From Polychytrium aggregatum (taxonomy: Eukaryota > Chytridiomycota > Chytridiomycetes > Polychytriales): 64,000 nucleotides of DNA. The notes beneath the pieces were generated by a model. That model was not told where the DNA came from and did not search any database. It worked only from the letters and a program-made list of their open reading frames with translations. This document shows positions 31,045 to 56,961 of this stretch, piece after piece. The stretch spans positions 1-64,000 of the forward strand of contig NW_026516270.1 of NCBI RefSeq assembly GCF_025602895.1, read 5' to 3'. The stretch's first letter is position 1. Each line of letters starts with the position of its first letter. The translations under genes and the position numbers were made by a program.

Positions 31045-34000
31045 TTAAGAAGGCTTCCTGCGAGGAGCCCTGCGTGTGCTCTTTATTTGGGGCTCCTCGA
31101 GGTGTTTACCGTATTTACTCAGCTCCTCGGGTGCATGGGACAAGTCCTCCAGTGTTTGCCATGTGTTGCCCGAGTGTGGGTAACCAACCCACTTGACATA
31201 AAACCGAAGTGACCCATCAGCCACTTTCTTGTGCCTCACGATCCTTTCGACTTCATATTCTTGAGTATAGTATTGTCCGAGGTCGTCTTCCAGTGGTGCG
31301 TCGTCCGGGACACCTTCGTCGGCGTCGGGGAACTGTGCTGGACTGCGGGTCGTGTGGCGACGCAGCTTGGACACATGGAAGACAGGATGGAGCTTGCTTC
31401 CAGGTGGCAAGTCCAACAGGTAGTTGAGGGGACTGGGTCGGGCCGCTATCTTGAACGGTCCTCGGTACTTGGGCAACAACTTCTTTGACTGGGCTTCGGG
31501 GACCTTGATGTTGTCGGCGTCCAGGTAGACAAGGTCTCCAACTTCAAAGGAGACATCCTGGTGTCGGCGGTCGTAGTACTTCGCCATCACTTGTTGCGCA
31601 TCCGTGAGCGCGTCGGCGATCATCTTGTGTCGGACTTGATGATCTTTGACAAAGGCACTTGGTTTGGGAGGCAATCCAGCCGTGGACTCGGTCAGTGTCA
31701 AGGAGGTGGGAACATCAGGCTGGAATCCGTAGAGCGCCTCAAAGGGGCTCAAGCCAGTTGTGCTCGACTTGGCGGTGTTGTATGCAAACTCTGCATGACT
31801 CAGCTGTATGTCCCAGTCGTCTTGGCTGGTCGAGGCGTATGTCCTCAGGTATTGCTCGAGGGTGCGGATCGTCCGCTCGGACTGTCCATCCGTTTGTTGG
31901 TGGTGCGAGGTTGACATGTTCAGCTTGGTGCCGAGATGGTCGAACAGACTTGTCCAAAACAAGGAGGTGAATCGGGGGTCTCGATCACTGACGATGGACT
32001 TTGGGAGGCCGTGGTGCTTGAACACATGCTTGAAGAACAGCAGTGCAAGGTCAGGCGCGGAGCATGTCGTCTGGCACGGCACAAAGTGTGCCATCTTGCT
32101 GAACCTGTCGACAAAGACAGCGATTGCATCGTGGTCCAACTTGGTCGTCGGTAGATGCGTGATGAGATCCATGGACATGCTGGTCCAGGGGCGGTCGGGA
32201 ACAGGCAGGGGTTGCAGCAATCCTTGCTCTCGGGTCGTGCGTGACTTGACCATCTTGCAGGTATGGCAGGACTCGATGTACTTCTCGACGGTGCGCTTCA
32301 TTCCAGGCCAGTATGCGACTTTGGCCAGTCGGTCGTATGTCTTCTCGACTCCAAAGTGTCCAGCGAGGGGCGAGTCGTGGACCTCTTGGAGCAACTTGGT
32401 CTTCAACGACGGAATGTCCGGCACACAGACACGGCTGTCCTTCTTCAGGAGGAGCAGGCCATCACGCACTGTGTACTCGGATGATTCGTCGTCCTTGGGG
32501 AGCTTAGACACCTTTCGGAACAGTTCTCCGAACTGTTTGTCGTTGGCGATGTTGTCTCGGACAACATCCAGCATCGTGTTGTCGACACTGACAGTCGACT
32601 CGTACAGTGACGCCAATTGGTAGTCGGGGCGTCGGGACAGTGCGTCAGGCACCACATTGAGTTTGCCTTTCTGGTATACAACCTCGTAGTTGTACTCGGC
32701 GAGGAACTCCATCCATCGCGCTTGGCGTCGGCTCAGGTTCTTCTTGGTGTCGAGGTAACGCAGTGACTGGTGGTCCGTCACAATCTTGAAGGGCTTGGCG
32801 GTACCGTGGAGGTACACTCGGAACTTCTGCAGCGCGTAGATGATCGCAAGCTGCTCCTTCTCGTGCACGGGATAGTTGATCTCGTGTTGGGACAGTTTGC
32901 GCGACTCGAAGGCAACGGGCCTTCCCTCCTGCATCAAAACAGCTCCCACCGCAAAGTCGGAGGCGTCGGTGTGCACGGAGACATCCGTGTTCGGGTCGAA
33001 CACAGCGAGGACAGGAGCGTTCGTCAAGGCGTGCTTGAGGGTCTCGAACGCTTGGCGTTGTGGGTGGTCCCACACGAAGGGGCACTCTTTGCGGAGTAGG
33101 TCTGTGAGTGGACCGGCAGTGCGCGCCAGATCGGGGATGAATCGGCGGTAGTAGTTGACGAGACCGAGAAACGACTGCACGTCAGAGACGCATGCGAGCG
33201 GCGGCCACTCGACCACAGACTTGACCTTGGCGGGGTCGACTTCGATTCCTCTTCCTGAGACAACGTGTCCCAGGAACGGGACTTGATTCTTGAAGAACTC
33301 ACACTTGGACAGTTTGGCATACAACTTGTGCTCGCGTAGCTTGGCCAGCACGCGGGCGACATGACCTTCATGGGTCGCTTCATCCTTGCTGTACACAAGG
33401 ATATCATCCAGGTACACGATGACAGAGTTGTCGAGCTCTTGGCGGAACACATCGTTCATCAGCTGCATGAACGTGGCAGGTGCGTTCGTCAATCCGAACG
33501 GCAGCACTAGGAACTCGTACAGTCCGTAGCGAGTCCTGAAGGCGGTCTTGTGGACATCATCCTCGTGGATGCGGATCTGATGGTAGCCTGAGCGGAGGTC
33601 TATCTTGCTAAAGACCTTTGCTCCACTCAGACGATCCATCAACTCGTCGATCCTGGGCAACGGGTAGGTGTTCTTGATGGTCTGTTTGTTTAGTGCGCGA
33701 TAGTCGACGCACATCCTGAGATCACCTTCTTTCTTCTTGACAAAGAGCACTGGTGCACCATACGGTGACTGGCTCGGGCGGATGAACCCATGGGCGAGGA
33801 GGTCATCCAACTGGCGCTTGAGTTCGTCCATCTCCGTCAGCGACAGTTGGTACGTCGGTCTTGACGGAGGCGACGAGCCTGGTTCGATGTCGATGCGATG
33901 ATCGACGGTGCGTTGGGGTGGCAGGCATTGTGGCAACTGGTCGGGGAATACGTCCTTGTACTCGTCGAGCAGCTTGGTCACCACAGGCGGGGGACCGGGA

Positions 34001-34977
34001 CCGGCTTGGTCGGTGTCGTCGACCTCACGCACGACACAGAGGAACGACGTGTCCTTCTTGATCAGCCTCTTGAATTGCATGGCTGAGAGGAGAGGTGGCA
34101 TGTTGGGTGAGGCCATGCCCTGCAGGACAATGTCAGGGCCAACACGGACAGTGCGGCCTTTCCAGTCGACGACTGGAGTCGGCTCGGCACGAGCAAGCCA
34201 GCTCATGCCGAGGATGGCATCGAACTTGGTGTCGATCACTTGGAACAACAGGACAGGATGGTACTTGGGATGGAGGGCCACTCGCAGGACCACTTGGTGT
34301 GTGCACTGCTGCACACGATCGTCTGCAAGCGCCACACTCATCGGCGACTTCTTCTTGGTTGCATGTATGTTGAGCTCCTGGAGCAAGCGTCTGCTGACAA
34401 AGTTGCAGCTTGCTCCAGAGTCCACCATCATTCGGACGGTGTGACCTTGGACGGTGGCAGGGAGGTACAGCAGGGACTCTTCATGGTCCTCCTGCACAGC
34501 CTCCTGCACCATGACTTGACTTGGGGGAACGGGCGACACTTGGTCTTGGTTGGCTTCATCACGGCCACTCGGACATTTTGGATAGGGTTCGGCCATTGCG
34601 GGGGCCTGCGGCGTCAGCACGCCATTGCACACGACGTCCACGGCTTGCGGACACATGTCGGAAGCATCCGACACACACGACTTGACAGGGGTGAGGGCAC
34701 AGGCGGTCCTGTCCCTCAAGGGTTCTTGATTTTCTTTTTTGTTTTGGTTTTCAATTTTGGTTTTCTCTTCACGTTCGTGGAGAGGCAGGCGGCTTGCGCC
34801 ACCATGCACCTCTCGCACGACGCACAACACTTGGTTTGTTTCTCCTTCGGGGGAGGGGGCGAGGTGAACTTCCTCTGGAGACGCGTGGACTGCATTGAGC
34901 AATCCACGGCGTTGGTCTCCTACTAGGGCTCCAGAGCCACCTAGTAGGGTCGGCCGTTTCCCGACTTCATGGGGCAC
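31045..34977 (-). CDS. Element A Pol polyprotein, copy 2
   Basis: 1310 codons translating to the same protein as 6589-10521: protease VDSGAS, RT YLDD, RNase H, integrase HHCC and DDE, C-terminal chromodomain. Entered from gag by -1 slippage at 34956-34962. No inactivating change. Confidence 0.96.
34919..34962 (-). promoter_or_regulatory. -1 frameshift signal of element A, copy 2
   Basis: Same heptamer GGGAAAC (34962-34956), 7-nt spacer and CCTACTAG/CTAGTAGG hairpin (34948-34919) as copy 1, with the gag TAG in the 5' arm. Confidence 0.85.
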
Positions 34978-40369: not shown

Positions 40370-40762
40370 TACACTTTACTCAGGGGAAATGGGACACCTG
40401 CCCACAACCCATTCGTCAGCGTTGTATGCGATGGAATGCGTCTAACTATGTCATAAGAAATGTAATAGATTACTTTGGCAGCCTCCGAGTGAAGACCACC
40501 GGTCGCTCTCCGGTCTCCACAGTCGACCTGCACACTGGTCTCGGATTGCCAGCGGTGCATGGTGCTCTTGGACAGACTGAAGATGGTGGCGACCTTGCGC
40601 AAGCTGCGGAACAGCGAGTAGCATCGCAGTGCAGCAATGCGGAAATCGAGGGTGCTGTGTTTGGCCATGATCGCAATGAGTGGGTGGGTGTATTCAGGTC
40701 CCAGAAAACCCCACTATGATGGCTCAAAACGGGGTGTCCCATTTCGTTTTGGAAACGCTGTA
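40370..40762 (-). mobile_element. MITE-like deletion derivative 1: IS630 transposase start + Fanzor tail
   Basis: 393 bp between imperfect terminal repeats: TACACTTTACTCAGGGGAAA at the left and, reverse-complemented, TACAGCGTTTCCAAAACGAA at the right; both run into a perfect GAAATGGGACACC core (40386-40398 and 40733-40745). TA at both ends fits Tc1/mariner target choice. On the minus strand it encodes the first ~41 residues of a transposase (LRKVATIFSLSKSTMHRW, helix-turn-helix) joined to the last ~21 residues of a Fanzor (ETGERPVVFTRRLPK) and its stop at about 40476. Not functional alone, but the ends look mobilisable. Confidence 0.75.
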
Positions 40763-41066
40763 AGGTGTCGCGCACCATAGGCCTTGGCTCAAGAAGCTTC
40801 GGGTGCATATCGACTTCCGCCTTGGCAAGAAGACTCGCCACCATCGATTCACAGGCCACAAGAGGCGCCAAGTGGCGGTTGACAGGATGTGCAAGGCCGT
40901 CCTGAAGCACTCCCCGATACGGACCGATGTGGTGATCGCCTTTGGCAATGCGTCATGGCGACAGGGCAAGGGCTATGCATCCAGCCCTCGGAGGCAGCGC
41001 TTTGCTCGGTACTTTGAGCAATTCAAACCCCACCGTCGCCACCCACGTCGCCCTTCATATGACTAA
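40763..41066 (+). pseudogene. Fanzor (TnpB-like) fragment
   Basis: Open frame from just after a TAA at 40761: WLKKLRVHIDFRLGKKTRHH, VVIAFGNASW, KGYASSPRRQRFARYFEQFK. The KGYASSPRRQRFA segment is nearly identical to the Fanzor remnant at 50716-51066. It is the middle of the protein; the zinc finger and last RuvC motif are absent. Derivative 1 sits at its 5' edge. Assignment to Fanzor rests on this shared segment. Confidence 0.65.
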
Positions 41067-41305
41067 GCTTGACGGAACCTCATCACATAGTACATGTTCA
41101 CGGAAGCGGCTGTGGTTTCCTTTTTTCTGGATAGAGTGGACACCTGGTATCTGATGGTCTCGGCTTTATTGATTACTCTCGATGGACATTTGATCCATAT
41201 TTCCTTGGCGCTGTCAACACGACGCGGCGGCTTGGCTGTTCATATCGACTCACGAAATCCGTTGTCTTCAATTACGAGCCGTATTGTTACTATCGTCTGG
41301 GGATA
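41067..41305. other. Short interval, boundary of transposon nest and gene-rich DNA
   Basis: No gene seen. On the minus strand it is the 3' flank of CDC24; scattered GT/AG pairs exist, so an extra 3' exon cannot be excluded, but no PB1-like peptide is convincing. Confidence 0.4.
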
Positions 41306-43923
41306 TTAAGGCCCGCTTGCAGTTTCAATAGCAAGCTCCGATTGGAGTAGCTCGAGCTGAAGTTGCTGCTGCTGGAGTTTAGATATCGACTGATGCTTTG
41401 AGGCTCTTGAAGCGGTTTCCATCGCCTCACCAACTACAGGATTCTGAGCAAGCATTTGGCGGATAGCTTCCCCACCGTGCGCTACCCCGCCATTAAGCGA
41501 GTTCGTTAGGTTGGTTAGGCCATTGGGTATTTGCGGGCTCCTCATTCGCCGACTGGCGGGATTTTCATCAACCGTGTTCAAGATCGATGTCGAAACAAGG
41601 ACTTGTCGGGCAGGGGCTTTGATGCTCTGGCGTCGCACGGGAGGGGATGAACTGATACCGAGCGCTGAAAAATCGGCACCGGGCGGTGAGCCGATCAAGC
41701 CAGAGAAATAATCACCGCCCCCCTTTGTCGAAGGCCGTCGGGATATCGGTCTTGCCGAACGAGAGCCTTGTCGCGCTAAATTGATGCCCTCGAAGGAAGT
41801 TGAAGACGAGACGGTCGGAGAGGAAGGTGCCTGTATCGCAATCGGAACTGCCGCCGATGGCCGTGGGGTCCCTTGAGCCCGCATTGAGCTGGCACGACCA
41901 AGCACTGGCGATAAATATGAGGCTTCGGGCTGTGTCGTGCCGTTTGTCTGTCGATCCCAGCTCGTGTTTGAAGGTGCCAGGGGATCACCGCTCGAAGGGC
42001 GAAGTCGATCGCCGCTTGAGGAACTGCTCGGGCGGGCAGTTGGTGTTGTTGATGCCGAGTAGCCAGAATCCCGTGCACTACCATTGCGGAAGCGCTCGAG
42101 CAGCTGCTCCAACTGCTCCTTCCACTGGCGGTACTGCTCCTGGGAGCGAAGCTTGAGAACAAACATTTCGCTGTCCCGCTCGTCTCTCCAAAACACTTTG
42201 ATCCTGCTTGCATCACTCCGAGAAACATCCTGGACCACTTGGATACAGCTGATGTACACGAGGCCGACCAAAACCAAGGCCGCTTCCTCGCGCTGACCGA
42301 CTCGAATTTTGCGCCCAGGGTTATCACGGAATCCCAGAAGGGCATTGTGGAAGAGATACAGACTGGCTGTTTCATCGACTCCCTCGATAAAGATTCGATT
42401 ATGGAGCAGAAGCTCGCCCAAGTCGCTGAGTTGCAATCCCTGAAAGCGATAATCAAATTTGAATGCGCTCTCATGAGAAGGGTGCTTTTTAGAGGTGCTC
42501 GGATGACAAGAAAGGATGCGCTGTCAAAACATGGCAAGAAAGGGCGCGCTGTCAAGACAATCGTGCCTACCTTCCAGTCGTCGACGAGCTCAACCAACTC
42601 TGTCTTGATGTGCTGAAGCTCTTGTTGACGCTTGATCTCGTTCACTTCCTCGGCAACCTTTGTGACGGATTCATAGCCCTCATTCAACTCAGAGAGATAC
42701 AAATAGGAGCTGCTCTCGGAGAGCTTGTACAGCTCCTTGAGCAGGAGCGGATAGCGGCATATGCGCTGGATAGGCTTGATCAAGTAGGACTGGATATCTT
42801 GAAGGGACGTAAATGTTTCGTGGGGCAGCTTGGAGAGCGCTGGTATTTCCTCCATGAGGGTATTTGAGGCAAAGTCAAAGTTTGAGCAGTAGGTGCCATA
42901 GAATTGAGAAAAGTGTCCCGCATTTTGGATGAACACAAGACCGATACGATGCTCGTCACCGAGCGCGATCGTTGTCTCCATCCACATTAGGATGCGCCGC
43001 TGGAAATCCAAGAGATCAATCAGGTTGCCAAAGAGGATGTGAGCCGTGTCTTTGGAGATGACGTTCTTTGACAATAGGCTCTCGCGGTAGCCGACCAGGG
43101 TCTCGAGCTGCGCGATATAGACCCGCTCGGTCTGCAGAATCTCGTAGATGATTTTAGAGCGGTTGTCAGATAAATCGGCATCCAAGGATTGAAACGGCAG
43201 CGGACAGGGTGGAGGCAGCAAGCCTCGATTCTTGAGCATAGACAATAGGATATCGACTGTCCGGAGAATCTGAATCGGATGGAATGAATGTAAGGTATCA
43301 ACACTGATGCGACCGGTGTGCAATGGCGGCGAGTTCACATGGCGAGCAAGCAATAGGCATGGAGTTGCCCGGATCAGGAGAGTCGAAGCTTGCGGTTGGG
43401 GGAGCGGACGGGGAGCAGAATAACAGCTTGCAAAGGCTGCTGATCAGAGGATTTGCTGGCAGCAAACCACGGCTGCCCAGATCAGCGGCTGGCAATCTAC
43501 CCAACTATGATGACGAACCTTAACAAGAACATTGGTGTCGTCCTTGAATATATCCGAGACGGCGAAGAGATCACCATCGCTCAAGCCAAGGGTGATGCAT
43601 GCGACCAGAAAAGCGTAGACCATTTTCTTGCATGCATTCTGGCTTCCGAGCTCGGCGAGGGGAGGAACGACTATCTTGGGCTGGACTTCGGGAAAATAGT
43701 TGGCGAGGATGCACAGCGGACTGCCGAAGCGCAGGAACGGCCAGAGGATGTGGATGGGATTGACAATGTTCAAGGTGCCGTCCCCAAAGGTCTGTGCCAG
43801 GCCCGCAGGGAACAGGAGTGGCTGTAAAGGGGCAAAGGCGTAGAGTTGCTCGATGGTGGCAACAGATTGTTTGTAGAGCGAAGTGGTTTGAGGCAGGCCC
43901 AGGGGGCCAGGCTGGACAGACAT
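41306..43923 (-). CDS. CDC24: Cdc24-like guanine nucleotide exchange factor for Cdc42
   Basis: Three exons: 43923-43519, 42571-43269 and 41306-42439, introns 43270-43518 (249 nt) and 42440-42570 (131 nt), both GT-AG and phase 0; 745 aa. Exon 1 has the Cdc24-type calponin-homology region (SLYKQSVATIEQLYAF, LRFGSPLCILANYF, ACKKMVYAFLVAC, VSDIFKDDTNVLVK). Exon 2 is the DH domain (SKIIYEILQTERVYIAQLET, YLIKPIQRICRYPLLLKEL). Exon 3 has the PH domain (ending FVLKLRSQEQYRQWKEQL) and a long Ser/Pro-rich tail. It should activate Cdc42 at polarity sites. The usual C-terminal PB1 domain was not found. Confidence 0.88.
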
Positions 43924-44396
43924 GGCAGCGACAACAGCGAAGGCGCTCTACGTTGGTAGAAGAGTCGGGTCAAAGTGGCAAAGACGGTGAGCGAGGGAGG
44001 GTTGGAAGTCAAGACGAAGGGCGAGGGGAAGCGGGAGGCGAGACCCAACGTGCCGAGCAAGCAGCAGGAGAAGGGCCAGATGGGGAGGCCAGGTGTCGGT
44101 TGAGGGGGGCGGAGAGGACGGGCAAAAACGCAAAGAGAGCAAATTTGGGAGGGACACTGTGGAACGGCCAGCAGTGTCTGGTGGTGGGCGGGGGATGAGC
44201 GGCGAAAGGAGCCACCTTCAAGGATGAGACTCGAGAAGCACATTTGCTGCCGTAAGCGGGTGGTGTGGAGGAGCCGGCGAGGAGGGGTGGTGGTGGCCGA
44301 TGGATAGGTGGACGACGCACAGGGGGTCTGGTGGGGGAACGACGCACACCATGAGGGGGGGGGACGGACAACGTATCCCGACTGCTGCAGTGAGGG

Positions 44397-44547
44397 TGTG
44401 GATGTGGATGTGGATGTGGATGTGGATGTGGATGTGGATGTGGATGTGGATGTGGATGTGGATGTGGATGTGGATGTGGATGTGGATGTGGATGTGGATG
44501 TGGATGGGATGTGGATGTGGATGTGGATGTGGATGTGGATGTGGATG
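44397..44547. repeat. (GTGGAT)n microsatellite
   Basis: About 25 copies of the hexamer GTGGAT with one interruption (ATGGGATG) near 44505. Translated by chance it gives His-Pro or Trp-Met runs. Likely hypervariable in length. Confidence 0.95.
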
Positions 44548-44984
44548 GTGTGTCGGGGGTCTCCCGATTCGTGATCTCCAATCGGACACTCAAAATGCAA
44601 TCCTCCATCCGAGCTGCAAGCCGACTCGCTGCTCGGGTCCTTTCTCCAACACCCACGACCCGCGCGCCCGTTGGTGGTCGATGGGCCCAACGGAAACCGC
44701 AGCGCCGGATCTGCTGTCGATCGGTCTGCTCGCACATTGCCCAGGATGGAATGCCAGCCGCCCAAGCGCGATCATGTCGGAGAGCGGGCGGCTGGAAGCA
44801 CGGTGCCATCGTGACCGCCAGCCGTGGCCCGCACAAGCATGGAAAGACCACGAAGGCAACGCCACAAGGGCAGCGAAAGGAAAGCTTCAGGAGAGTGGCC
44901 AGGAAACGAGAGGGCGATGCTGTGTGGGGCTGGAGGAAAAGACCATGTTCGACCGTGCGGCATGCCTGGGTGCTGCTGAATCCT

Positions 44985-45045
44985 GGATGCTGAATCCTGG
45001 ATGCTGAATCCTGCGTGCTGGATGCTGGATGCTGGATGCAGCCAG
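44985..45045. repeat. Small CTGGATGCTGAATC repeats
   Basis: Short degenerate tandem copies of TGCTGAATCCTGGA and TGCTGGA, about 60 bp. No function seen. Confidence 0.7.
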
Positions 45046-45639
45046 GCATTGCAAACAGCCGGTCGCAGCATCACTTTCCATATCCGGTACGGAGGTCGCA
45101 CAGGGCATCGCGCGGCCCACAGGGTCTGCTGCATCTCCGTTCATTTGATCGACGCGCGGCGCGGCTGTCCCTGTGCGCCAAGCGCGCGTGCCCTGTGGGA
45201 CAAGGCTGCAGAAAACGCGAGGACGCGCTGGACCTCAAACAGCGCGGGCAGCCCGAAGCAGCGCTTGACAACACACCACACAGCGGAGCGCAATACAACA
45301 TGCAGCGCGCACAGCACAATACTCCACACCACACAGCACTCGACAATACAACACAGCACGCGCCTCGCTGCGTGGCCCCAAACAGCGCCTTGTTGCCTTG
45401 GCCCCCAACCCACCCAGCCCTTCTTCCCACACACAAGCCTCCTCCCCTTGCCCTTTCAGTCCCCAGCCTCCTGCTGCCTCATTACCCCGCACCGGCAGCC
45501 AACGGCCACTCTCCTGCTTTCTCTCCCGCGGCTCCCATCCTTCCGGGCTCACTTGCCTCCCCATTCCGACGGGCCTGGTGTATTCTCGCCCCCTCGCGGT
45601 CTTTACTCCCGTCTCCCAAGTCGCTGCGTCCTGCCCAAG

Positions 45640-47244
45640 ATGTGCTTCGTCTTGGACTCCAACTCCATCTGTGGCCCCGACTTCAACGGGTACCAGTTCT
45701 ACAGCACCGATCAGTACGCCAACAGCGCCGACTTCAACACCTACGTCTCGGCCCTCGTTGTCAGCGTCCAGAACGTCACCACCAGCTTCGTCGGCACGAG
45801 AGCGTGTCTGCCTGCCGTCTCCCAGTCCATCTCGAACCAGCTGAGATACCAGCTCTCGTCCTTCTGTGGCCGAGTTGCCTATCTTTCTTACAACGGCTCG
45901 AACGCCTGTCCCCAGACGAAATCCCCCCCGCCATTCCTCTGTCCGGACCAGTGCAAGTTTGCCTACACCACTCTGACCACCGTCTACAACGATGTCAGTG
46001 TCTGCCCAGCCACCACCAGCAGCTCGGCGATGCAGTCCCGCAACCAGAGCATCAACAACGTCATCGAGTACTGCAACAACGCCCTCACCCTCCAGACATC
46101 CAACCCTTCCGTGCAGTGCTATGCCGGCGCCCCTCTCGAGGTCAGCAACAGCGATTGTGGCTTCAGAGATCAATCCAGCCGAATTGCTGGCTGCCAGCTC
46201 ATCCCCAACGATCCCTGCTGTATGGCCCTCAACGGCAACAACAACACAAACAACGGCAACACTTCCGGAGGCAGCCCCATCGGCATCATCGTCGGCTCCA
46301 TCCTCGGCGTCCTTGCCCTTGTCGGCATCGTGGTGGCCGTCTGGATCGTCCGCCGCCGGCGTCTGCAAAAGGCCTACAACTACCAGACCGACTACACTCA
46401 GCATCAGACCTATGCCTCCACTGGCAACTCGAACAACAACATTCCAATGTACGCCCAGCGCCGAGATGTCCCGCCTCCCCAAGCACAGCCTCATATGGAG
46501 CAGCAACCTCCCGCCCAAGCCAACAAGGCCGTCAACCATCTGAGCTATGCCCCCAATGAAAACCAATTCGTCTCCACCCCTCCTGAGCGCCAGAAGGCAT
46601 ACCCAGTGCCCAGCGCCATGGCTGCCAAGACCCCCAGCCAGCAAGCTCCGCCTGCCACCCAGCAGCATTCCCAGAGTGCACCCCTCAAGTCGGCTCTCTC
46701 TTCTCGTTCCCAGCAACCAGACAGCCTCTCTGTACTCACATCCGTGGGCGCTGCTGCTGTTGCCCAGGCTCCTCCGGCCTCTAAAGCTGCACCCGGGGCT
46801 GCCGCTGCCTCCATCGAGCTCTCTCAAGCGATTCCTGGGGCCACTGCTGCCCAGAATGTCATGCGAGTCGTGCACCCCTATGCTCCCACTCTCGCCGACG
46901 AGCTCGAGCTCGAAGTCGGCCATGATGTGATTGTGATTCGATCCTTTGATGATGGCTGGGCTCTCGGACTGGTGCCCACCACTGGCAAGCAGGGCGCTTT
47001 CCCCCTCGTCTGCGTGGCCCGGCCTGAAGATGTGGTCGCCTTTGAGCTCGCCAACGGTGGCCAGCGGTTCTCGACCGCCACCTCGAGCGACATCCAGTTC
47101 AACAAGCGTATGTCGTCTCAGATCATCTCGGCCGAGGACATTGAGGCAGTCGCCAAGATGGTTGTCCAGCAGCGCTCGACGATGATCAATGCCAACGGCG
47201 AAGGTAAAGCCCAGAGCCCATTCGCAACGCCGTTTGATGAGTAG
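45640..47244 (+). CDS. Single-pass membrane protein with C-terminal SH3 domain, paralog 1
   Basis: 534 codons from ATG 45640. Cys-rich extracellular region (CFVLDSNSICG, about ten cysteines, ending PNDPCCMAL), one transmembrane helix (GIIVGSILGVLALVGIVVAV) followed by RRRR, a long Gln/Pro/Ser-rich cytoplasmic linker, and an SH3 domain (VVHPYAPTLADELELEVG, DDGWALGLVPTTGKQGAFP). Layout resembles yeast Fus1: a sensor or adhesion head linked to polarity machinery. Paralog 2 has a signal peptide before the equivalent of CFVLDS, so the real start is probably in an upstream exon I could not place. Confidence 0.8.
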   Translation: MCFVLDSNSICGPDFNGYQFYSTDQYANSADFNTYVSALVVSVQNVTTSFVGTRACLPAVSQSISNQLRYQLSSFCGRVAYLSYNGSNACPQTKSPPPFLCPDQCKFAYTTLTTVYNDVSVCPATTSSSAMQSRNQSINNVIEYCNNALTLQTSNPSVQCYAGAPLEVSNSDCGFRDQSSRIAGCQLIPNDPCCMALNGNNNTNNGNTSGGSPIGIIVGSILGVLALVGIVVAVWIVRRRRLQKAYNYQTDYTQHQTYASTGNSNNNIPMYAQRRDVPPPQAQPHMEQQPPAQANKAVNHLSYAPNENQFVSTPPERQKAYPVPSAMAAKTPSQQAPPATQQHSQSAPLKSALSSRSQQPDSLSVLTSVGAAAVAQAPPASKAAPGAAAASIELSQAIPGATAAQNVMRVVHPYAPTLADELELEVGHDVIVIRSFDDGWALGLVPTTGKQGAFPLVCVARPEDVVAFELANGGQRFSTATSSDIQFNKRMSSQIISAEDIEAVAKMVVQQRSTMINANGEGKAQSPFATPFDE

Positions 47245-48490
47245 ACCCTCAGGCTTTAACTTGTGCCACTCGGCCTGTGCAGCGATGGGGTGCAGCAAAC
47301 ACCCGTCTGCCTGTTCGGTGGTGTCGGAAGGCTGACACCCACGACATACGGGACTCTGAGTCTAACCCGGCCTTTTGTCGTCGGCCCCGCGCGCAAAACT
47401 TGGATGGCCGTAACTGAGTCGCCGACCTTCTTTCTTCTTCCATCCTCGTCCCGTAACGTGTCCCTATCTGTGGTCTGACATCTGTTGTCAATATTCACTC
47501 ATTCCCCCCCCCAACTACTCTGGTCGTGTCCTCTATCCCTGTATGCTTGTATGTCTGTCTTTGGCTTGTCACCGTTTTAGTGCGGCTCCAATAAACAACG
47601 GGGGCACCCCGGTTTTTTGAGCATTGACCGATTTTGTTTCGTTGCCCAGAGCCGGTGCATCCTTACCACAACCATTTGGCCAACCCCAGGATGCGATCCA
47701 CGCTCCTGGAACAGTGTGTCCCGAGATGAACCAGCCGATGCAGTCGCGGCCCTGCACGCCCCTCCCCGCAGCCAGATCGTATCACCAGGGATGCTCGGTG
47801 CTTCTGTCCCGACTTGGACGTGTGGTTACACCGCTCGACAGAGCAAGGAAAAGCGGAAAGGCTGCCGAAGCCTCGCCAAGCAGCCCGAGCCCCTGCCAGC
47901 ACCGTCACTGTCGTGCGGGCTGGTCTGCGCTGTTTCTCATCCTCTCGAATCATATCGCATCGCACCACATCGCATCGCATCGCATCATCGCATTGCATGC
48001 CCTGGACTGCAGTTCTCCCCAGTGCCCCGCCCGACCCGCTGCAACATTCTCTCCCAGCCCGCTGTGGCTGTGCATCCCCGAGCGCGTGAAGGCGCGTGCC
48101 GCCCTCTCCCGGCTTGTGGCCATGCACGGGTCCTTGTCGCACAGTGCTTTTGACTGTGTCGCCGAGGCCGGCTGACCCCAGGACGCGCCTGCAACCCAGC
48201 CGGCCTTGCCCCTTTCTTGCACGAACCCAACTCTCTTGCTCTTGGTCGGCGCTGCTTCCTCGGGCTTGACGAGCCTTGGCCCTCTCCATCGCTGCCTCTG
48301 TCGCCCCTGCTTCGTCTGCGTCGGTGCCCACTGGCTCGGCGCTCTCACTCGGGCCCCTCACCACTGTTCCGCGCCAAAAGACCCAGAGCTGGTCTGCTCC
48401 GAACATCTGCGCTCCGGGCTCGACTCCGAGATTCCATCCATCCTTTCCCATTTTTGTTCCTCCCTTCCCTTCCCAGCACCAATCGGCTCA
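47245..48490. other. Intergenic region between the two SH3 paralogs
   Basis: 3' UTR of paralog 1 (AATAAA at about 47590) and promoter of paralog 2. ATCGC-rich simple sequence at about 47950-47990. No gene recognised. Confidence 0.5.
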
Positions 48491-50527
48491 ATGGCTGTCG
48501 CTCACTACTTCCTTAGATATGCAATTGCAGCCGCGCTCTTCGCCGTTGCCGCCGATGCCTTCTGCCAGACCCCGGGCGCCTGCTTCCCGCTCGCCGCCAA
48601 CAACATCTGCGGCTCTAGCTTTGTCGGCTATGGCATCAACAGTCTCTACTTTGACGAGTTCCCGGCCACGGGCGTCAACACCGACACCTTCAACCAGGTC
48701 ATGATCCAGCGCTACGAAACCATCAGCGTCGTCGCCGACAACTTCATCTCCAACAAGGGCTGCTCGGCCTCGGCCTCGTCCTTCATCTCCCAAAACTTCC
48801 GCTACCAGCTCTCGTTCTGGTGCAGCGTCATCATCCGCGACAACATCATGCAGAGCAGCTGCTCGTGCCCGCCTCCGGCCGGCAGCCCCGTCCACGGCCC
48901 GGCCCTGTGCACGGCCCAGTGCCAGATTGCCACTGCGAGCGTCCAGTCGCTCCTCAACGACCCGACCACTTGTCCTGCCACCTCCAACACGACGCAGTCG
49001 CAGGGCCGGACCACGACCCTGGGCACCTTCCAGACGTACTGCTCGACGACGGCCCCGGCGGACCTGGCGACGCCGAATGGCGGGCCGTGCTATGCAGGCG
49101 TGGACCAAGACGTCCAGTTCTGTGGTGAGTTGGCTGCACAAGCAGCTCGATCGTCAAGGATGCAGGTGTGTGCGGGCAATGCCAGCGGACATGTCCGCTG
49201 TGTGTCCATGCACATGTCCATGTGCGTCGATGCATATCTGCATATTGAGCTGGAGTGCGCTCGCTTGGTGATCCCACCACCTCCGGCGCGAGCACGGCCG
49301 AGCACGGCCAGGCACGATGGCAGTGGTCTTGACCAGTTTGCCAAACTGACCACCTCGGTTGTTTCTCCAGGCTTCCTCGATGCCACGGACATGGCCAACG
49401 GATGTAGCTCGCTACCGAATGACCCCTGCTGTGCTTCCCGAGTTTCAGGCCATCCGACAAACGGCACCGGCGTCACCACATCGGCACCAACCACACCATC
49501 GCCCTCAGTCCCCAACGGAACCCCAAGCAACATTGGTTTAATCTGCGGGGTCATTGTCGGCGCCCTCGTATTGCTCGGAGTCATTGTCGGGTTCTTGGTC
49601 CAGAAACGTCGCCGAGCCTCCCGAGACCCGATGTATGTGCAACATCCCACCGAGAGCCTAACATACAGCCAGTACTTGCAAGATCAACGACACAAGCAAG
49701 ACATGGAAGCCAGCGGCACGTATTCCTCTCCAAGAGTCGACTATTCCGAAATCGAAATGGCCACCAATGGCCTCAATGACTCGCTTCGATCTCCCCTTCC
49801 AACTGCCTCTATGCATAATTCCTCTCCTGCTTCTGGAAAGCAGTCCCCGTATGTTCGACCCACCCGAGAGTACACGCCTACTCCTCCACCCCCCGCCGCT
49901 CCCCCCAAAGATGAGGTCCCCAGCCCCGCAAGCTACGGATTCCGGATCACCAGCCCGCCGCCCCAAGGGACCCCGGTCTCCAACTCAGCTGCCCCAACAG
50001 CGGTATCGACCGAGCCGCCGCCCCATCATCAAGCTGCCCGGGCCCGTCCAGCAGCGGTCGCACGAGAGCTTCCCCCGCCTGCTGCTAAACCTTACACAGC
50101 TCCACCTCCGGTCCGGATCGGCCAGGTCGCGAATTCGCCACAGCATCCCGAGCCGACTGTGGTGAAGGTGGTTCACCCATATGTCCCCAGCATCAGCGAC
50201 GAGCTGGCTCTGAGTGTCGATCAGGATGTAATCGTGATCCGCTCCTACGATGATGGCTGGGCCATGGGCCTCATCCCCAACACCGGCAAGCAAGGCGTCT
50301 TCCCTCTCATCTGCACACTCCCTCCCGAGGACTATGCCGCGCTCCTCCAAAACTCGGTGACCGAGCCGGGCTCGTACAGTTCCCTGGGCGAGCTGAGCGT
50401 CCTGAGCCAAATCTCATCGCGGATGTCATCGCGTCTGTTGGACGAGGAGGATCGTCATGCTATAGCATATTCAGGACGAAACGGCATAGCGCCCATCCGT
50501 GCTCCCTCACATCAGCCACTGCCATGA
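48491..50527 (+). CDS. Single-pass membrane protein with C-terminal SH3 domain, paralog 2
   Basis: Two exons, 48491-49124 and 49371-50527 (intron 49125-49370, GTGAGT...CAG), 596 aa. Signal peptide (FLRYAIAAALFAVAADAF), Cys-rich ectodomain with the same closing motif PNDPCC, transmembrane helix (IGLICGVIVGALVLLGVIVG) followed by KRRR, Pro-rich cytoplasmic region, SH3 (VVHPYVPSISDELALSV, DDGWAMGLIPNTGKQGVFP). The intron is 246 nt, a multiple of three, with no in-frame stop; the spliced form aligns with paralog 1 across the junction and is preferred. Confidence 0.85.
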   Translation: MAVAHYFLRYAIAAALFAVAADAFCQTPGACFPLAANNICGSSFVGYGINSLYFDEFPATGVNTDTFNQVMIQRYETISVVADNFISNKGCSASASSFISQNFRYQLSFWCSVIIRDNIMQSSCSCPPPAGSPVHGPALCTAQCQIATASVQSLLNDPTTCPATSNTTQSQGRTTTLGTFQTYCSTTAPADLATPNGGPCYAGVDQDVQFCGELAAQAARSSRMQVCAGNASGHVRCVSMHMSMCVDAYLHIELECARLVIPPPPARARPSTARHDGSGLDQFAKLTTSVVSPGFLDATDMANGCSSLPNDPCCASRVSGHPTNGTGVTTSAPTTPSPSVPNGTPSNIGLICGVIVGALVLLGVIVGFLVQKRRRASRDPMYVQHPTESLTYSQYLQDQRHKQDMEASGTYSSPRVDYSEIEMATNGLNDSLRSPLPTASMHNSSPASGKQSPYVRPTREYTPTPPPPAAPPKDEVPSPASYGFRITSPPPQGTPVSNSAAPTAVSTEPPPHHQAARARPAAVARELPPPAAKPYTAPPPVRIGQVANSPQHPEPTVVKVVHPYVPSISDELALSVDQDVIVIRSYDDGWAMGLIPNTGKQGVFPLICTLPPEDYAALLQNSVTEPGSYSSLGELSVLSQISSRMSSRLLDEEDRHAIAYSGRNGIAPIRAPSHQPLP

Positions 50528-50715
50528 GCTCGGTGATGTGTAGGCCCCAGTGAGCAAGCCGTGAGATTGTTTCCCGTCCTGGTTGTTAATCGCGTTGCTG
50601 ATGGTTTGGGAAGCATACACTTTATTCAGAAAAAAACGGGACAATATAGCCGTTTCCATGAACATGTAGTATGTGCTGTGCTTGCGTCAAGCAAAGCCAC
50701 AAGAAATAAAACAGA

Positions 50716-51066
50716 TCACTTTGGCAGCCTCCGAGTGAAGACCGCCGGTCGCTCTCCGGTCTCCACAATCGACCTGCATACTGTGATCATGTTGCGCGCC
50801 GCATTGACGTCGCGATTCCACACTGTCCGGCAGCTGGGATTCTTGCAGCTCCTGACAAAGTGGGAATTCGCAACACTGGGCGCATCGAGTCCTTCCAACC
50901 GAACTGGCTCCAGGCACTTGGAGCACACTTGCGAGGTGTTGAACTCGTTCGTCGAGACTACCTTGACGCTTCCATGATGGTGATTGGGACGGCGTCGGTG
51001 GTGCTCGAATTGCTCAAAGTACTGAGCAAACCGCTGCCTCCGAGGGCTGGATGCATAGCCCTTAGT
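50716..51066 (-). pseudogene. Fanzor (eukaryotic TnpB homolog), C-terminal ~117 residues
   Basis: KGYASSPRRQRFAQYFEQF, then TSQVCSKC, SCKNPSC (the four-Cys zinc finger inserted in the nuclease) and WNRDVNAARNM, the diagnostic last RuvC motif of TnpB/Fanzor with its catalytic Asp. Ends VETGERPAVFTRRLPK. Fanzors are RNA-guided DNA endonucleases; this fragment lacks the guide-binding and earlier RuvC parts and cannot be active. Confidence 0.85.
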
Positions 51067-51645
51067 ACATGCGATGCAGCACACCAGAGTGGTTGATGGC
51101 AAATGCCACCGAGACAGACTTGTGCTTCATGTGATTGCGCTGGCGAAGCGGAGCACCCTTCGGTGAGTATCCGTAGAGAGGGAAAATGGATCTCCTGATC
51201 CCTGTCTCGTCGACAAAAACGAGCCGTCGTGGGTCGATGGAGCGGACCTGGTCCCTGAACTGTGCCACTCGCTCATCCAGTCGCTTGGACTTGTAGAGGT
51301 GTGTTGCCCTCTTGTGTGAGAGACCTGCTCGGTGGATGGCAGTGTGGCAGAGTGAGAGTGATACTTTCCTCTGGAGGATGGACTCGAGCTTGCATCGCAA
51401 CACAGGACCAGTCTGGAACGGGTCCTGTTCAATCAGGGTGCGGATGACTGGACATGCCTGCTCGAAGAAAGTGGATCTGCGAGCTGGGACCCGGGATGGG
51501 TCATCCAGCTTGCATCCTCGGTGCCATCGATGGATGGTGCTCTTGGATACACTGAATATGGAGGCGACCTTACGCAGGCTATGGATGAGGGCGTAGCATC
51601 GCAATGCGGCGGTGCGAAAGTCGGATGTGTGGCGAATGGTCATGG
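51062..51645 (-). pseudogene. IS630/Tc1-like transposase, N-terminal ~194 residues
   Basis: Starts MTIRHTSDFRTAALRCYALI; helix-turn-helix (LRKVASIFSVSKSTIHRWHRG), linker, HxAGLSHK-type second HTH region, and the first catalytic Asp in LVFVDETGIRRSIFPLYGYS with PKGAPLRQRN. Stops at the deletion junction (HSGVLHRMY), so the second Asp and third acidic residue are missing. This is a different transposase family from the one at 38516-40366. Confidence 0.85.
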
Positions 51646-51689
51646 CCAGCGCGCGATCACATTGGGAAGCATAATATTGAATACACCCC

Positions 51690-51820
51690 GGCCGATCTCC
51701 TGTGGCGACGATCGACCGGCAAACCGACATCATGTTTCGCGAGACATTGATGTTGCACTTCGCAGTGTAGTGCATGCATTCGACCCTCAGGGCAGCGCCA
51801 TGTCGAGATGGTGTGGTCAA
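51690..51820 (-). pseudogene. Degenerate Fanzor tail (derivative 4)
   Basis: Minus strand reads VECMHYTAKCNINVSRNMMS, VCRSIVATGDRP: a decayed version of the zinc finger and RuvC-III motif (Asp replaced by Asn in NINVSRN). It directly precedes the transposase start of derivative 2. Confidence 0.6.
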
Positions 51821-51914
51821 GCGAGTTGCTCGCCATGTGTTCCGGGCGTGGTCGTCTCCGGTGACCGAAGGTGTATTCAGGATCCGAAATGGTGACGGCC
51901 CTGAGCCGATCGCC

Positions 51915-52007
51915 TTGATACCTTCCGAGTGACGACCGTGGGCCGCTCTCTGGTCTCCACAATCGCAAGGCAGCGATGCAAAAGCCTAGTGCGCGGTGGA
52001 TGGCCAT
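51915..52007 (-). mobile_element. Deletion derivative 3: transposase first 15 residues + Fanzor tail
   Basis: MAIHRALGFCIAALR (compare MTIRHTSDFRTAALR) joined directly to IVETRERPTVVTRK (compare IVETGERPAVFTRR). The same fusion logic as derivatives 1 and 2 with a larger deletion. Terminal repeats not found. Confidence 0.6.
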
Positions 52008-52054
52008 GGCCGCTGACGTTGTCGTCCATCGCAGGTGGCAGTCGACGATGGGGC

Positions 52055-52862: not shown

Positions 52863-55800
52863 ATGAAGCAAGTCTTCTCCGCCCTGGACGTCGCCGCCTC
52901 CGTGGCTGATCTCAAGCTCAAGCTGATTGGCTTCCGGCTCCAGAACGGTATGGTCCCTCGGGCGAATGCCTCAAACACGCATTTGCTGCTGCCGACACCA
53001 TTAGCTCGCCATTTGGCCCCCAGATACCCATGGCGCTGACCCCTATTCTTGGCATGGCAGTCTATGATGTCAACCAGAAGCTCTATCTTTTCAAATTTGC
53101 CAAGCCCGATCACAAAGAACTGCTGCTGATCGAATCGGGCATCCGCATCCACACGACCCAGTTCTCGAGGGAAAAGTCGTCTGCTCCGTCGAGCTTTGTC
53201 ATGAAGCTCAGGAAGCATCTGCGCACCCGTCGCCTGTCCGACGTGTCGCAGCTCGGATTTGACCGAATCGTAGACATGCAGTTTGGCGATGGTGAATTCG
53301 GTAGGCTCCCGCATCCATGGTTCAGGAGATGATGTCCTGTGACGCTGAGGCTGGATAATGGCATCGTTTAAGCGGTGGTATCACGGACGCCGATGGCACC
53401 GATGGTGGCAGTGGTGCTGCGGACGTCATCAACACAACCGATACTGATGCCGAATCGAATCCCACACTCCCGTCTCTCTCCAAACCGGCTGTCTCCGGCC
53501 AACAGCCTACCACCTTATAGTCGAACTGTATGCATCTGGTAACATTCTTCTGACGGACCATGAGTATCGCATCATGACCCTGCTGCGTGTCGTCGAGCTC
53601 GATGGCACAGCTATACCCGGAAACAGGGCCGACGACGCCCGCTTTGCCGTCGGCGAAGTCTACCCGAACGTCTCCCGTCCATTCGAGCCCATGACTGAAC
53701 TTAAACTGCGTTTGGCGCTCGAAACGGCCGAGGCCAACGAAAACGCGGCCGCCCAGCTCGACCAGCCCGAGGACGCCCCGTCGCAGTCCGTCGAGAAGCA
53801 GGATAAGCAGGAGAAGGGCAAAAAGAAGGGAGGCAAGCAGCCGCCGCAGCAAACCAGTGCCAAGCATCAGACAAAGAAAAGACCTCAGATACTCACCCTC
53901 AAGCGGTTCCTTCGCGAGCATTTCTTGCAAATCTATGGCCCAGCGCTTGTGGAGCACGCCCTGGCAGAGTCGGGCCTGGATCCCAATCTCGCGGTCTTGA
54001 AAGACCTGGACACCGCGAGCGGGTCCGTCCAGCTCGACTCCTTGCTCGCTGCCCTTGTCAAGGCAGACGATGTTGTGCGCTCATGCAAGAACAGTCCGCA
54101 GAAAGGATGGATCATTTCCAAATCCCATGCAAAAGACGAGAGCAGAGATGATGCCGGGGAGTTCGTGACCTATGAGGAGGTATGTGCTGAGTACTTTTCT
54201 CGCTCCATCCGCAGCAGCATGGCTGTGTATACGGACAAGCTCTTGACCCCCAGCGGTATTGACGATGGAATGTCTGTCCCTCCTCATCAACGGCATGCAG
54301 TTCCATCCGGTGCTCTTCTCTCAGTTCAAAAATTCGCCGCACAAAGAGTTCCAGGGCTTCGATCACGCGGTGGACGAGTTCTTCTCAAAACTCGAAGCAC
54401 AGAAACTCGAGCTGCGCGCCCGACAGGCCGAGCAGGCGGCGGCCAAAAAACTGGCTTCCGTGAAGGCGAGCCACGAGAACCAGGTGCGCGGGTTCGAAGC
54501 TGCGCGGCAAAACAACGAAAAGACGGCGCTGGCAGTCGAGCTCAACCTGGAAAAGGTCGATGCGCTCGTCAACACCCTTCGCGGCTTCCTGGCCAGTGGA
54601 ATGGATTGGGTCGATCTTGCCGAGCTCATCAAGGAGGAGCAGAAGCGACAAAATGAGCTGGCGCTGATGGTACTGCAGCTCAAGTTGGATGTTGGCATGG
54701 TCACCATCGGCCTTCCAAACCCAGATCTGGCCGATACGTCGTCGGACGAAAGTGGAAGCTCTAGCGACGATCTGGATTCGGACGATGACGACTACGAGCT
54801 CCAACTCGCCGCCAAGAAAAAAGCTTACGAGCAGAAGCTAGCCCTGGTTAAGAAGCGGCGTGACGAATCGCTGATCAAGTTGGACGTGGACATTTACGCC
54901 TCGGCCTATGCCAACGCCTCGCGCTACTACGAAGCCAAAAAGCTCGCCATCGTCAAGCACACCAAGACGCTCCAGGTCGCTGAGAAGGCGTTCAAGTCGG
55001 CCGAGCGCAAAATTGCCATGGACCTCAAGAGCACCCAGCAGATTGTACCCTCGATCAGTAAAATTCGCAAGCCCCTTTGGTTCGAAAAGTTCCTGTGGTT
55101 CGTCAGCAGTGAAAACTACTTGGTTGTCGGCGGCCGCGACGCAACCCAGAACGAGATGCTTGTGAAGCGATATCTCCGGAAAGGAGATGTCTACATCCAC
55201 GCCGATCTTCATGGAGCCGCCTCTGTGATTGTGAAGAACACTGGCGCTGGGCCAGATGCCACCAACGCTGCCGGAAATGATGACTGTCCGATCCCGCCCA
55301 CGACGCTTTTGCAGGCCGGCACCATGTCCGTCTGCCAATCCAAGGCATGGGACGCCAAGATCGTCACCAGCGCCTGGTGGGTATATGACCACCAAGTCTC
55401 GAAAACCGCGCCCACAGGCGAATACCTAACCACGGGCAGCTTCATGATCCGTGGAAAGAAAAACTGGCTCCCGCCAATCCAGCTCGTCTATGGCTTTGGC
55501 ATTCTCTTCAAGGTCGATGAGAGCAGTGTTGGTCGACACTACTGGGAACGGCGGCCATGGGGACGTGGCCAAGACCCCGGGAACGCCCCATCTGCCAAGT
55601 CCTTGGATGGCGGAGAGCTGCCGTCAGCGACCGATGTCTCGCTTGGCCAAGAGGAGGATCGAGATGAGGATGTTGACGAGCAATCGGTGATGATTGGTGG
55701 AGGGCACGCCGTAGACCAAGATGCCCCCAATGACGACGCCGGAGACCTTGCCGACGAAACAGAGGATCCCCAAGACGAAACAACCGAGCTCGAGGCCGCT

Positions 55801-56961
55801 CAAGCGAACGATACCCTCGGGCAAGGCCAGCATACCGCACCTGATGCGGATGATGAAGCGAGCTCAGCCACCGGGACATTCCCGGTCGGCTTGGACAAGT
55901 ATAATCTTGCAGCTCTCGGCGAGAGTGCCTCAGATGACGCATCTACACAGCAGAGCGCAACGCAGTCCAAGCGATACCTGTCGGCCAAAGAGCGTCGCAA
56001 CGCCAAAAAGAAGCAAGCCCAAGGGATCGACGCCACCGATCCAGAAGACGTAGCGGATGCAACCAGTGCGAGAGTCCAGAGTAAGGCTCGCCAGGAAGCT
56101 CGTGCGACTCCGTTCGAATCCAAAGGAACATCACCGGCGTCCAAGACCCCGGTTCGCGGCAAGAAGGGGAAGGCGAAAAAGATCAAGGACAAATACAGGG
56201 ACCAGAGCGACGACGAGCGCGAACTGATGATGAAGCTGCTTGGATCCAAGGGCAAGGCGGGAACGGTAGAAGCCAAGGGCAGCCAAATCGCCAAAGCCCA
56301 GACAGCGTCCAAGGAAGGCGCGCGCAAGCAGGAACACGATCAAACCGAGCAATCTGCAGCATCCTCCCTAAACAAAGCTTCGACCGCTTCCCCAGATGGC
56401 GATGCCGACGCTGAAGACGAAAACGGAAATGAAATCGAAATCGAAATCGAAAATGAAAAGGATAACGAAACCGACGAAGAGCGCAACAGCGCCGATGGCA
56501 CCAACGCAGATGGCACCACCGCTGACCGCGACGATATCGACGAAGTCCGCCGCCTTTTGGAAGAAGAGAACGTGGCGCTGTTGGATGACGACCAGGCTTC
56601 CAATATGACGTTCCTTGACTCGCTCACCGGCCAGCCCCATCCGGACGACAATCTTCTCTACGCCATCCCGATGTGCGCTCCATGGGCCGCACTGCAAAAG
56701 TTCAAGTACAAGGTCAAGCTCCTACCGGGATCGCTCAAGAAAGGCAAGGCAGCCAAGGCAGCCATCACCTGCTTTATCGCCGCAGCAAATGAGGAGGCAA
56801 AGGGGCGCGACGATGCCGTCACTGCTGCCCTCAGCCGTGAAAAGGAATGGATCAAGGCCATCCCTGAGACGGAGTTGATGGCACAGATACTGGGCAAAGT
56901 CAAGGTGATGTCGACGGGTGCAGCGGACAACAAAAAGCAAGCCAAAGGAAAGAGAAAGTAG
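52863..56961 (+). CDS. RQC2: Rqc2/NEMF, ribosome quality control factor
   Basis: Four exons: 52863-52947, 53061-53300, 53506-54179, 54301-56961; 1219 aa; introns 113, 205 and 121 nt, all GT-AG. NFACT-N starts [11 protein letters not shown] (Asp9) and keeps the Asp-Arg pair [12 protein letters not shown] (residues 96-97) needed for CAT-tail synthesis in yeast Rqc2. Then a long coiled coil (about 345-470), NFACT-R ([20 protein letters not shown], about 590-720), an acidic/low-complexity linker, and NFACT-C ([20 protein letters not shown], about 1115-1205). Binds 60S subunits carrying stalled peptidyl-tRNA and recruits the Ltn1/Listerin ligase. Confidence 0.93.

Follow-up and report, generated by a model that had tools for sequence, protein, structure and literature searches.

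Probable deletion derivatives of a Tc1/mariner transposon carrying a Fanzor1 gene in the chytrid Polychytrium aggregatum

Between positions 40370 and 52007 of a 64,000-nucleotide stretch of the Polychytrium aggregatum genome (contig NW_026516270.1, positions 1 to 64,000; hereafter the window), an initial annotation had noted three short segments that each join the start of a Tc1-like transposase to the end of a Fanzor protein on one strand. This raises the question of whether a transposon encoding both proteins lies behind them, and what the Fanzor would do for it. Fanzor proteins are the eukaryotic homologues of TnpB and relatives of the CRISPR nucleases. Our analysis indicates that the window fragments are very probably internally deleted, non-autonomous derivatives of Fanzor1-carrying Tc1/mariner (DD34E) transposons; the multicopy set recovered as full-length elements is called family A. 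This account includes a putative contribution of the Fanzor to the spread of the element.

The window is one part of a 64.7-Mb assembly of 418 contigs, and this assembly was searched with one of the segments, derivative 2. The best 40 of 1371 first-look candidate places were scored and comprised 16 near-complete copies of a 1.04-kb derivative class, the window's own among them and the remainder 95-98% identical, plus 24 places matching on the transposase side only, at 98-99%. Similarity on this scale is not due to chance. Twenty of the 24 transposase-side loci were fetched (L021-L040), and were thus picked by transposase-end similarity. In 18 of these 20, the transposase side is accompanied by a complete Fanzor side in the same orientation, located 3.1-3.2 kb downstream of the point where the transposase side starts; the exceptions are L022, which ends at a contig end, and L021, which keeps 83 bp of the Fanzor side. 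Sixteen complete elements of 3602-3743 bp were extracted, bounded by TACAGGCAATCCAAT... and ...CTGAATAAAGTGTA (small variants allowed), with imperfect terminal inverted repeats (TIRs) that share AAAAAACGGGACA. In an unfiltered view of the 20 loci, all 19 left ends present carry TTA and all 18 right ends present finish in TA. End and flank counts throughout refer to the matches listed, at most 100 per pattern, and the loci read amount to approximately 290 kb. Of 68 listed left ends tested, 47 could be matched to a right end that was also listed and had the same orientation; the distance is 3.2-3.8 kb in 40 of these pairs and shorter in seven. The parent proposed in the initial annotation, ordered TIR-transposase-Fanzor-TIR and 3-4 kb long, is therefore present in the same assembly as TA-flanked elements of 3.6-3.74 kb with both genes on one strand.

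The same annotation had suggested that an intact parent may exist in this genome, and two copies bear this out. L025 (3742 bp, intron-free) has open frames for a transposase of 310 amino acids (aa; element positions 87-1019) and a Fanzor of 790 aa (1270-3642), and L035 is open over 310 and 789 aa, such that both proteins are apparently intact. Both frames are open in these 2 of the 16 complete copies, a proportion that is not the genome-wide rate, given that copies were chosen by transposase-end similarity. In L032 and L040 the transposase is open and the Fanzor carries one stop; in L023, L026, L028 and L031, as well as in L027 outside the set of 16, the Fanzor is open and the transposase is shortened or frame-shifted.

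The transposase places the element in the Tc1/mariner (IS630-Tc1-mariner) superfamily. It contains a DDE_3 domain (E 5e-24), which is also found in all 33 of its protein relatives, and a catalytic triad of D145, D221 and E256, with the 34 residues between the last two that define DD34E. Across its first 265 codons, 31 replacing changes were counted where 38 were expected (standard deviation (sd) 3.3), a weaker deficit than that of the Fanzor; the low transposase diversity arises in part from sampling, because copies were chosen by transposase-end similarity.

The second protein appears to be a Fanzor1, judged by its motifs and by a profile match to characterised Fanzor1 proteins. It has a TNB zinc-finger domain (E 1.8e-9) and shows the arrangement D-X(125,275)-[TS][TS]-XX-C4 zinc finger-X(5,50)-RD given for Fanzors (PMC3627910), with D539, TS 179 residues on, C722/C725/C748/C753 and RD at 759-760; the four-Cys zinc finger and RD recognised earlier in the window fragment are part of the full-length protein. 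The RuvC-I motif DPG (PMC10711439) occurs as WIGIDPGVGS around D539, and the displaced catalytic Glu lies six residues before the zinc finger (ExxxxxxCxxC) at E715, in NEFNTSQVCSKC, and is invariant in nine aligned proteins. The TDG of the WED domain, a Fanzor1 criterion (PMC10711439), corresponds at the level of the motif to T489 D490 G491, likewise invariant in the nine. The N-terminus is basic, with a Cys/His-rich stretch common to the metagenomic relative P0037. When P0036, P0037 and seven element copies were combined into a nine-sequence profile, the best matches in the PDB were Parasitella Fz1 at E 1.2e-6 and SpuFz1 at 1.7e-6, with GtFz1 at 0.056; the single sequence alone reaches only E 0.28. 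A protein search with the whole Fanzor gave no match at E 0.001, and a search with its C-terminal region gave four relatives.

Selection on the Fanzor was assessed in 15 complete copies, L035 being dropped as its left flank is shared with L024. These copies contain 367 distinct changes, of which 176 are silent, 181 replacing and 10 stop, compared with expected counts of 100 (sd about 8), 257 (sd about 8) and 10 (sd about 3) when changes of identical kinds are placed at random. The depletion of replacements is seen both in changes common to at least two copies and in single-copy changes. This shows that the Fanzor has been under protein-level constraint.

The flanks of the element provide a clue to what the Fanzor may recognize. 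The left-end pattern with A, G or T before TA, which did not admit C, has 177 exact occurrences, and the 100 matches listed have T in 98, A in one and G in one. When any base was allowed before TA and eight flanking bases were read, T was found in 99 of 100 listed rows (of 114). In distinct flanks, T precedes the left TA in 76 of 77 (100 listed of 114), compared with 16% of TA in the window background (binomial P 2e-58). The lone G flank, on contig C119, is otherwise the same as two T rows (C346 and C372), and the G may therefore be a later change. On the right, the first base after TA in 90 distinct flanks (100 listed of 251) is A in 15, C in 31, G in 26 and T in 18, so that A is unbiased relative to the 16% background; the second base leans to A (39/90), far more weakly than the left T. 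In SpuFz1 of Spizellomyces punctatus, CA precedes TA and the measured target-adjacent motif (TAM) is CATA (PMC10432273); further TAMs are given in PMC11423790. By the same logic, the one-sided T together with TA predicts TTA as the TAM of this Fanzor.

Alternatively, the strict T could stem from the transposase itself, through a preference in target site or in end orientation, with the Fanzor having no role in where insertions are found. We consider this a credible explanation, though we lean against it. The known Tc1/mariner target preferences are roughly symmetric around TA, and the bias seen here is confined to one side, with A after the right TA at background. The SpuFz1 precedent, in which two extra conserved left bases plus TA make up the measured TAM, likewise argues against a purely transposase-driven pattern (PMC10432273). 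On the other hand, the seven short paired derivatives also have T before the left TA, and these would need the transposase in any case, and base -2 of the left flank is A/T-rich (57/77 distinct flanks), as target preferences often are.

A TTA TAM would fit the following mechanism, in which TA cut-and-paste, a right-end guide RNA, TTA cleavage and copy-in repair are all inferred. The transposase would move the element by cut-and-paste into TA. The Fanzor would bind an RNA from the right end of the element; the 3' tail of this RNA would extend into the flanking sequence and thereby record where the element had inserted. DNA in which TTA is followed by that flank sequence would then be cut by the Fanzor, and on a sister or homologous chromosome such DNA is the site still lacking the element. 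Repair of the cut site would copy the element in. An occupied site would escape cutting, as the inserted element separates TTA from the flank sequence and its own right end finishes in GTG-TA instead of T-TA. Derivatives with a retained right end may be served in trans by both proteins, in the manner of the Spizellomyces 'ghost' elements. A proposed logic of this kind, in which the guide records the insertion site and unoccupied copies are cut, has been described for the plasmid gene drive of IS200/IS605 TnpB (PMC11870625); those are bacterial insertion sequences on plasmids, whereas here a DDE cut-and-paste transposase is involved and the logic is inferred. The role of a Fanzor for its transposon is called unknown in PMC10432273.

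A stronger version of this mechanism, which we offer tentatively and regard as possible but doubtful, is that in a eukaryote a DDE transposon survives only where its own RNA-guided nuclease is able to cut the site again. A Fanzor with a TTA TAM would convert unoccupied alleles, so that survivors would nearly all have TTA on one side (76/77), Fanzor-less derivatives would exploit the system by retaining the Fanzor gene's end, which would serve them as an RNA gene, and a full-length element and a 312-bp insert sharing the same flanks would be the trace of copying in. The pair in question comes from the L026 site, where one contig (G000:C398:62995-66826) holds the full element and another (G000:C246:75459-75969), judged by the gap between flanks, a 312-bp insert, the size of one derivative class. 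The sites of L025, L026, L031, L034 and L040 were each found in two places with both flanks apart, and the gap equals the full-element size in 9 of these 10 positions. The L032, L033 and L038 sites were found in one place each; for L028, the left flank is rich in repeats and gave no match, and the right flank alone matched, in two places. A scan of the loci read for unfilled sites gave one usable case: the L006 insertion sits in a repeat, of which approximately 80% identical unfilled copies lie in L039 and L036. At the place where the L006 insertion is bordered by TA at either end, these copies carry one dinucleotide, which reads TC; this would fit a 2-bp duplication. An apparent unfilled site that L036 gave against itself was discarded, since a neighbouring TIR had produced it.

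The guide RNA in this mechanism would come from the right end, and the derivatives point to the same region. The derivative classes read retain 99-665 bp at the left; at the right, the retained length is 168, 216, 448 or 458 bp, and the last 168 bp are kept in all five classes whose right ends were read. The 168-bp class has one junction common to family A and to a second family, B, represented by derivative 1 of the window; this junction occurs 107 times (at most one mismatch), versus 261 for Fanzor-coding sequence at the same place, with duplicated contigs counted. A 76-bp block there is 72/76 identical (95%) between derivative 1 and the family-A derivative L049, whereas neighbouring segments are 90/123, 47/85, 31/55 and 29/44 identical (55-73%). 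Folding of these 168 bp gives z -2.1, with 5 of 200 shuffles doing as well. Pairwise silent diversity is 0.039 in the last 25 Fanzor codons versus 0.088 elsewhere, which is suggestive of an RNA at the gene end and short of proof. We propose the 76-bp block as a candidate core of the guide-RNA scaffold. The guide RNA of GtFz1 overlaps the last 17 codons of its gene (PMC10432273), which would fit the position of the block, and for Fanzor1 RNAs the TIR and target-site duplication were predicted to be part of the scaffold (PMC10711439).

Conservation of the block could instead result from recombination or gene conversion between families, or from its being part of a small protein (helix-turn-helix plus 26 residues). 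This alternative to a guide RNA is conceivable, but we hold it to be unlikely. Open fusion frames, 75 and 99 aa long and ending in a common tail of 26 residues, are present in derivatives of families A and B, and all four block differences between them are silent in that frame. The fusion-frame reading looked good between two copies, but is unsupported by variants across copies: 17 distinct one-mismatch junction variants comprise 4 silent, 12 replacing and 1 stop, compared with 15, 46 and 2 among all possible ones, which indicates no protein constraint. Moreover, the block is retained in L052, most of whose transposase part has been lost. The fusion frames themselves, found in the common small derivative (L049 and 40370-40762 of the window), join the transposase helix-turn-helix to the tail, and such a protein could, in principle, repress transposition.

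A number of observations weigh against the account given above, which is of a Fanzor1-carrying transposon that spreads with the help of a guide RNA encoded at its right end. No unfilled allele was seen at nine joined-flank sites (best 40 of 356 candidates scored), and homing was not observed. In the unfilled L039 and L036 repeats the dinucleotide is TC, with T before it, and not TA. Two exact left ends of family B were found; that in the window reads TTA, the other ATA. Covariation is weak in the consensus fold of 12 sequences, where 2 of 33 predicted pairs are changed on both sides and kept (covariation term -0.54), and the third-position diversity of the last 25 codons is low but ranks 9 of 88 windows. 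A Fanzor fragment at 40794..41138 of the window has lost the conserved Fanzor-end block, its right-end profile match (41054-41138) covering positions 81-168 only. The AlphaFold2 model of the Fanzor from nine sequences is poor (mean predicted local distance difference test score 45), and the active site therefore rests on motifs. Finally, Fanzor stop changes are undepleted (10 versus 10 expected), a result consistent with copies decaying after insertion.

That the transposase and Fanzor are two separate, nested elements is highly improbable for family A and was discarded: Fanzor1 is found in other element types too (PMC3627910), but the two sides follow one another on one strand in 18 of 20 loci, 16 elements are complete between a single TIR pair, and the spacing is 3.2-3.8 kb in 40 of the 47 end pairs. 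At two other loci (L044 and L045), the same right-end module lies beside a left sequence in which no transposase was found, and the Fanzor end may therefore be shuffled among elements.

With full-length elements in hand, the window fragments can be read more closely. Derivative 1 (40370..40762, minus strand), a 393-bp internally deleted element of family B with its left end at 40762 and right end at 40370, is flanked by TA at both ends, with T before the left end on the coding strand. As had been claimed, it joins a transposase start to a Fanzor end: tblastn against an intact copy found the 41-codon N-terminal helix-turn-helix part at 40546..40668 (68% aa identity, E 3e-12) and the Fanzor C-terminus at 40473..40580 (64%, E 1.5e-6), both on the minus strand. 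The conserved 76-bp block at 40470..40545 (minus strand) holds the junction, the last Fanzor codons and the stop, and also lies inside the transposase-frame fusion open reading frame. Two further copies, on contigs C399 and C377, were reported as 100% identical. Adjoining the left end is the further Fanzor fragment at 40794..41138 (plus strand), which comprises aa 618-701 (tblastn 88%, E 1e-41) followed by a decayed right-end region.

Derivative 2 (50616..51678, minus strand), of the 1.04-kb class of family A, consists of two parts that match L025 with 99.1% and 98.2% identity. Its composition was correctly identified, with transposase aa 1-193 at 51065..51643 (99.5%, E 1.7e-128) and Fanzor aa 676-790 at 50719..51063 (98%, E 2.8e-68), the latter including the displaced catalytic Glu, the C4 zinc finger and RD. 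However, similarity to the parent extends to 51678 rather than stopping at 51645, and the true left end (the first 51 bp) is missing; at the place of this loss lies a decayed Fanzor-end fragment (51655..51756, minus strand; blastn 71.6%, E 2e-8). The right-end 168 bp, 50616..50783 (minus strand), contains the last Fanzor codons, the 3' untranslated region and the right TIR, and is a candidate guide-RNA template. The same flanks as in the derivative 2 region occur on contigs C384, C399 and C377, and the window region is therefore present more than once in the assembly. Derivative 3 (51908..52011, minus strand) is decayed. Its Fanzor end at 51908-51965 is real (blastn 58 bp, 81%, E 4e-11), while the proposed transposase N-terminus is one weak 50-bp match at 51962-52011 (blastn 74%, E 5e-4), and no clear element ends were seen; it is too decayed to count as independent evidence.

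The idea of one parent for all three scraps did not survive, as at least two related families are involved and family B differs in its ends and transposase. The end motifs quoted in the initial annotation are those of derivative 1's family, and do not apply to the parent of derivative 2, whose left end is TACAGGCAATCCAATAAAAAACGGGACA. A full-length family-B parent was looked for in three fetched stretches, which held derivatives only.

Capture of Fanzors by eukaryotic DNA transposons, also invoked earlier, is on record. Mariner elements that carry a transposase together with Fanzor1 were described as PUl-1 (Pythium ultimum) and PGv-1 (Phaeocystis globosa virus), alongside Fanzor1 families in Allomyces and Spizellomyces; the Mariner Fanzor elements described there have TIRs and TA duplications (PMC3627910). 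By the published description, PGv-1 is set apart by an additional GIY-YIG endonuclease and is single-copy in the virus (PMC3627910). The present element encodes two proteins and has many copies in a chytrid genome, with large classes of deletion derivatives. Spu-1 of Spizellomyces punctatus resembles the present element in having a chytrid Fanzor1 (SpuFz1), TIRs with TA, additional conserved bases confined to the left side, and Fanzor-less 'ghost' elements that keep the right end (PMC10432273). It differs in that no transposase was found between its repeats, in that its CATA TAM was measured whereas TTA is predicted only, and in that its 75-nt scaffold follows the stop codon whereas the most conserved block here lies in the last Fanzor codons (PMC10432273). 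The nearest named relatives, the Polychytrium aggregatum gene models P0034 and P0035, are 65% and 52% identical over 41% and 49% of the C-terminal query, and their Fanzor pieces are annotated only as parts of larger gene models. For one of these models, the part outside the Fanzor piece has paralogues in the present assembly at 92-96% identity, besides others at 59-75%, and none was identical among the best 40 of 1588 candidates scored. We found no description of the present element, or of any Polychytrium Fanzor element, among the open-licence papers listed in our searches. The combination of Mariner and Fanzor1 is thus already described, and what is new here is an apparently intact, high-copy and well-preserved member.

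The value of such a member is that a transposase and a Fanzor, both apparently intact, occur in one multicopy fungal element with hundreds of end sequences, a one-sided flank signature and several derivative classes. The idea of retention or homing for a eukaryotic cut-and-paste transposon thereby becomes testable with and without the Fanzor, and the element is a source of a 790-aa Fanzor1 with a short predicted TAM.

The remainder of the window contains other mobile and host-type sequences. Long reading frames of chromodomain retrotransposons of the Ty3/Gypsy type were identified by Pfam at 6592-10521, 12554-16363 and 22899-26771, and 31045-34977 was listed with them by the same length and open reading frame layout as 6589-10521. 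Near the transposon cluster, a host-type gene at 54259-56958 encodes NFACT domains (NFACT-R, E 4e-41; NFACT-C, E 3e-33). Two adjacent same-strand frames at 45001-47241 and 48206-50524 each encode an SH3 domain towards the C-terminal end, and may have arisen by tandem duplication.

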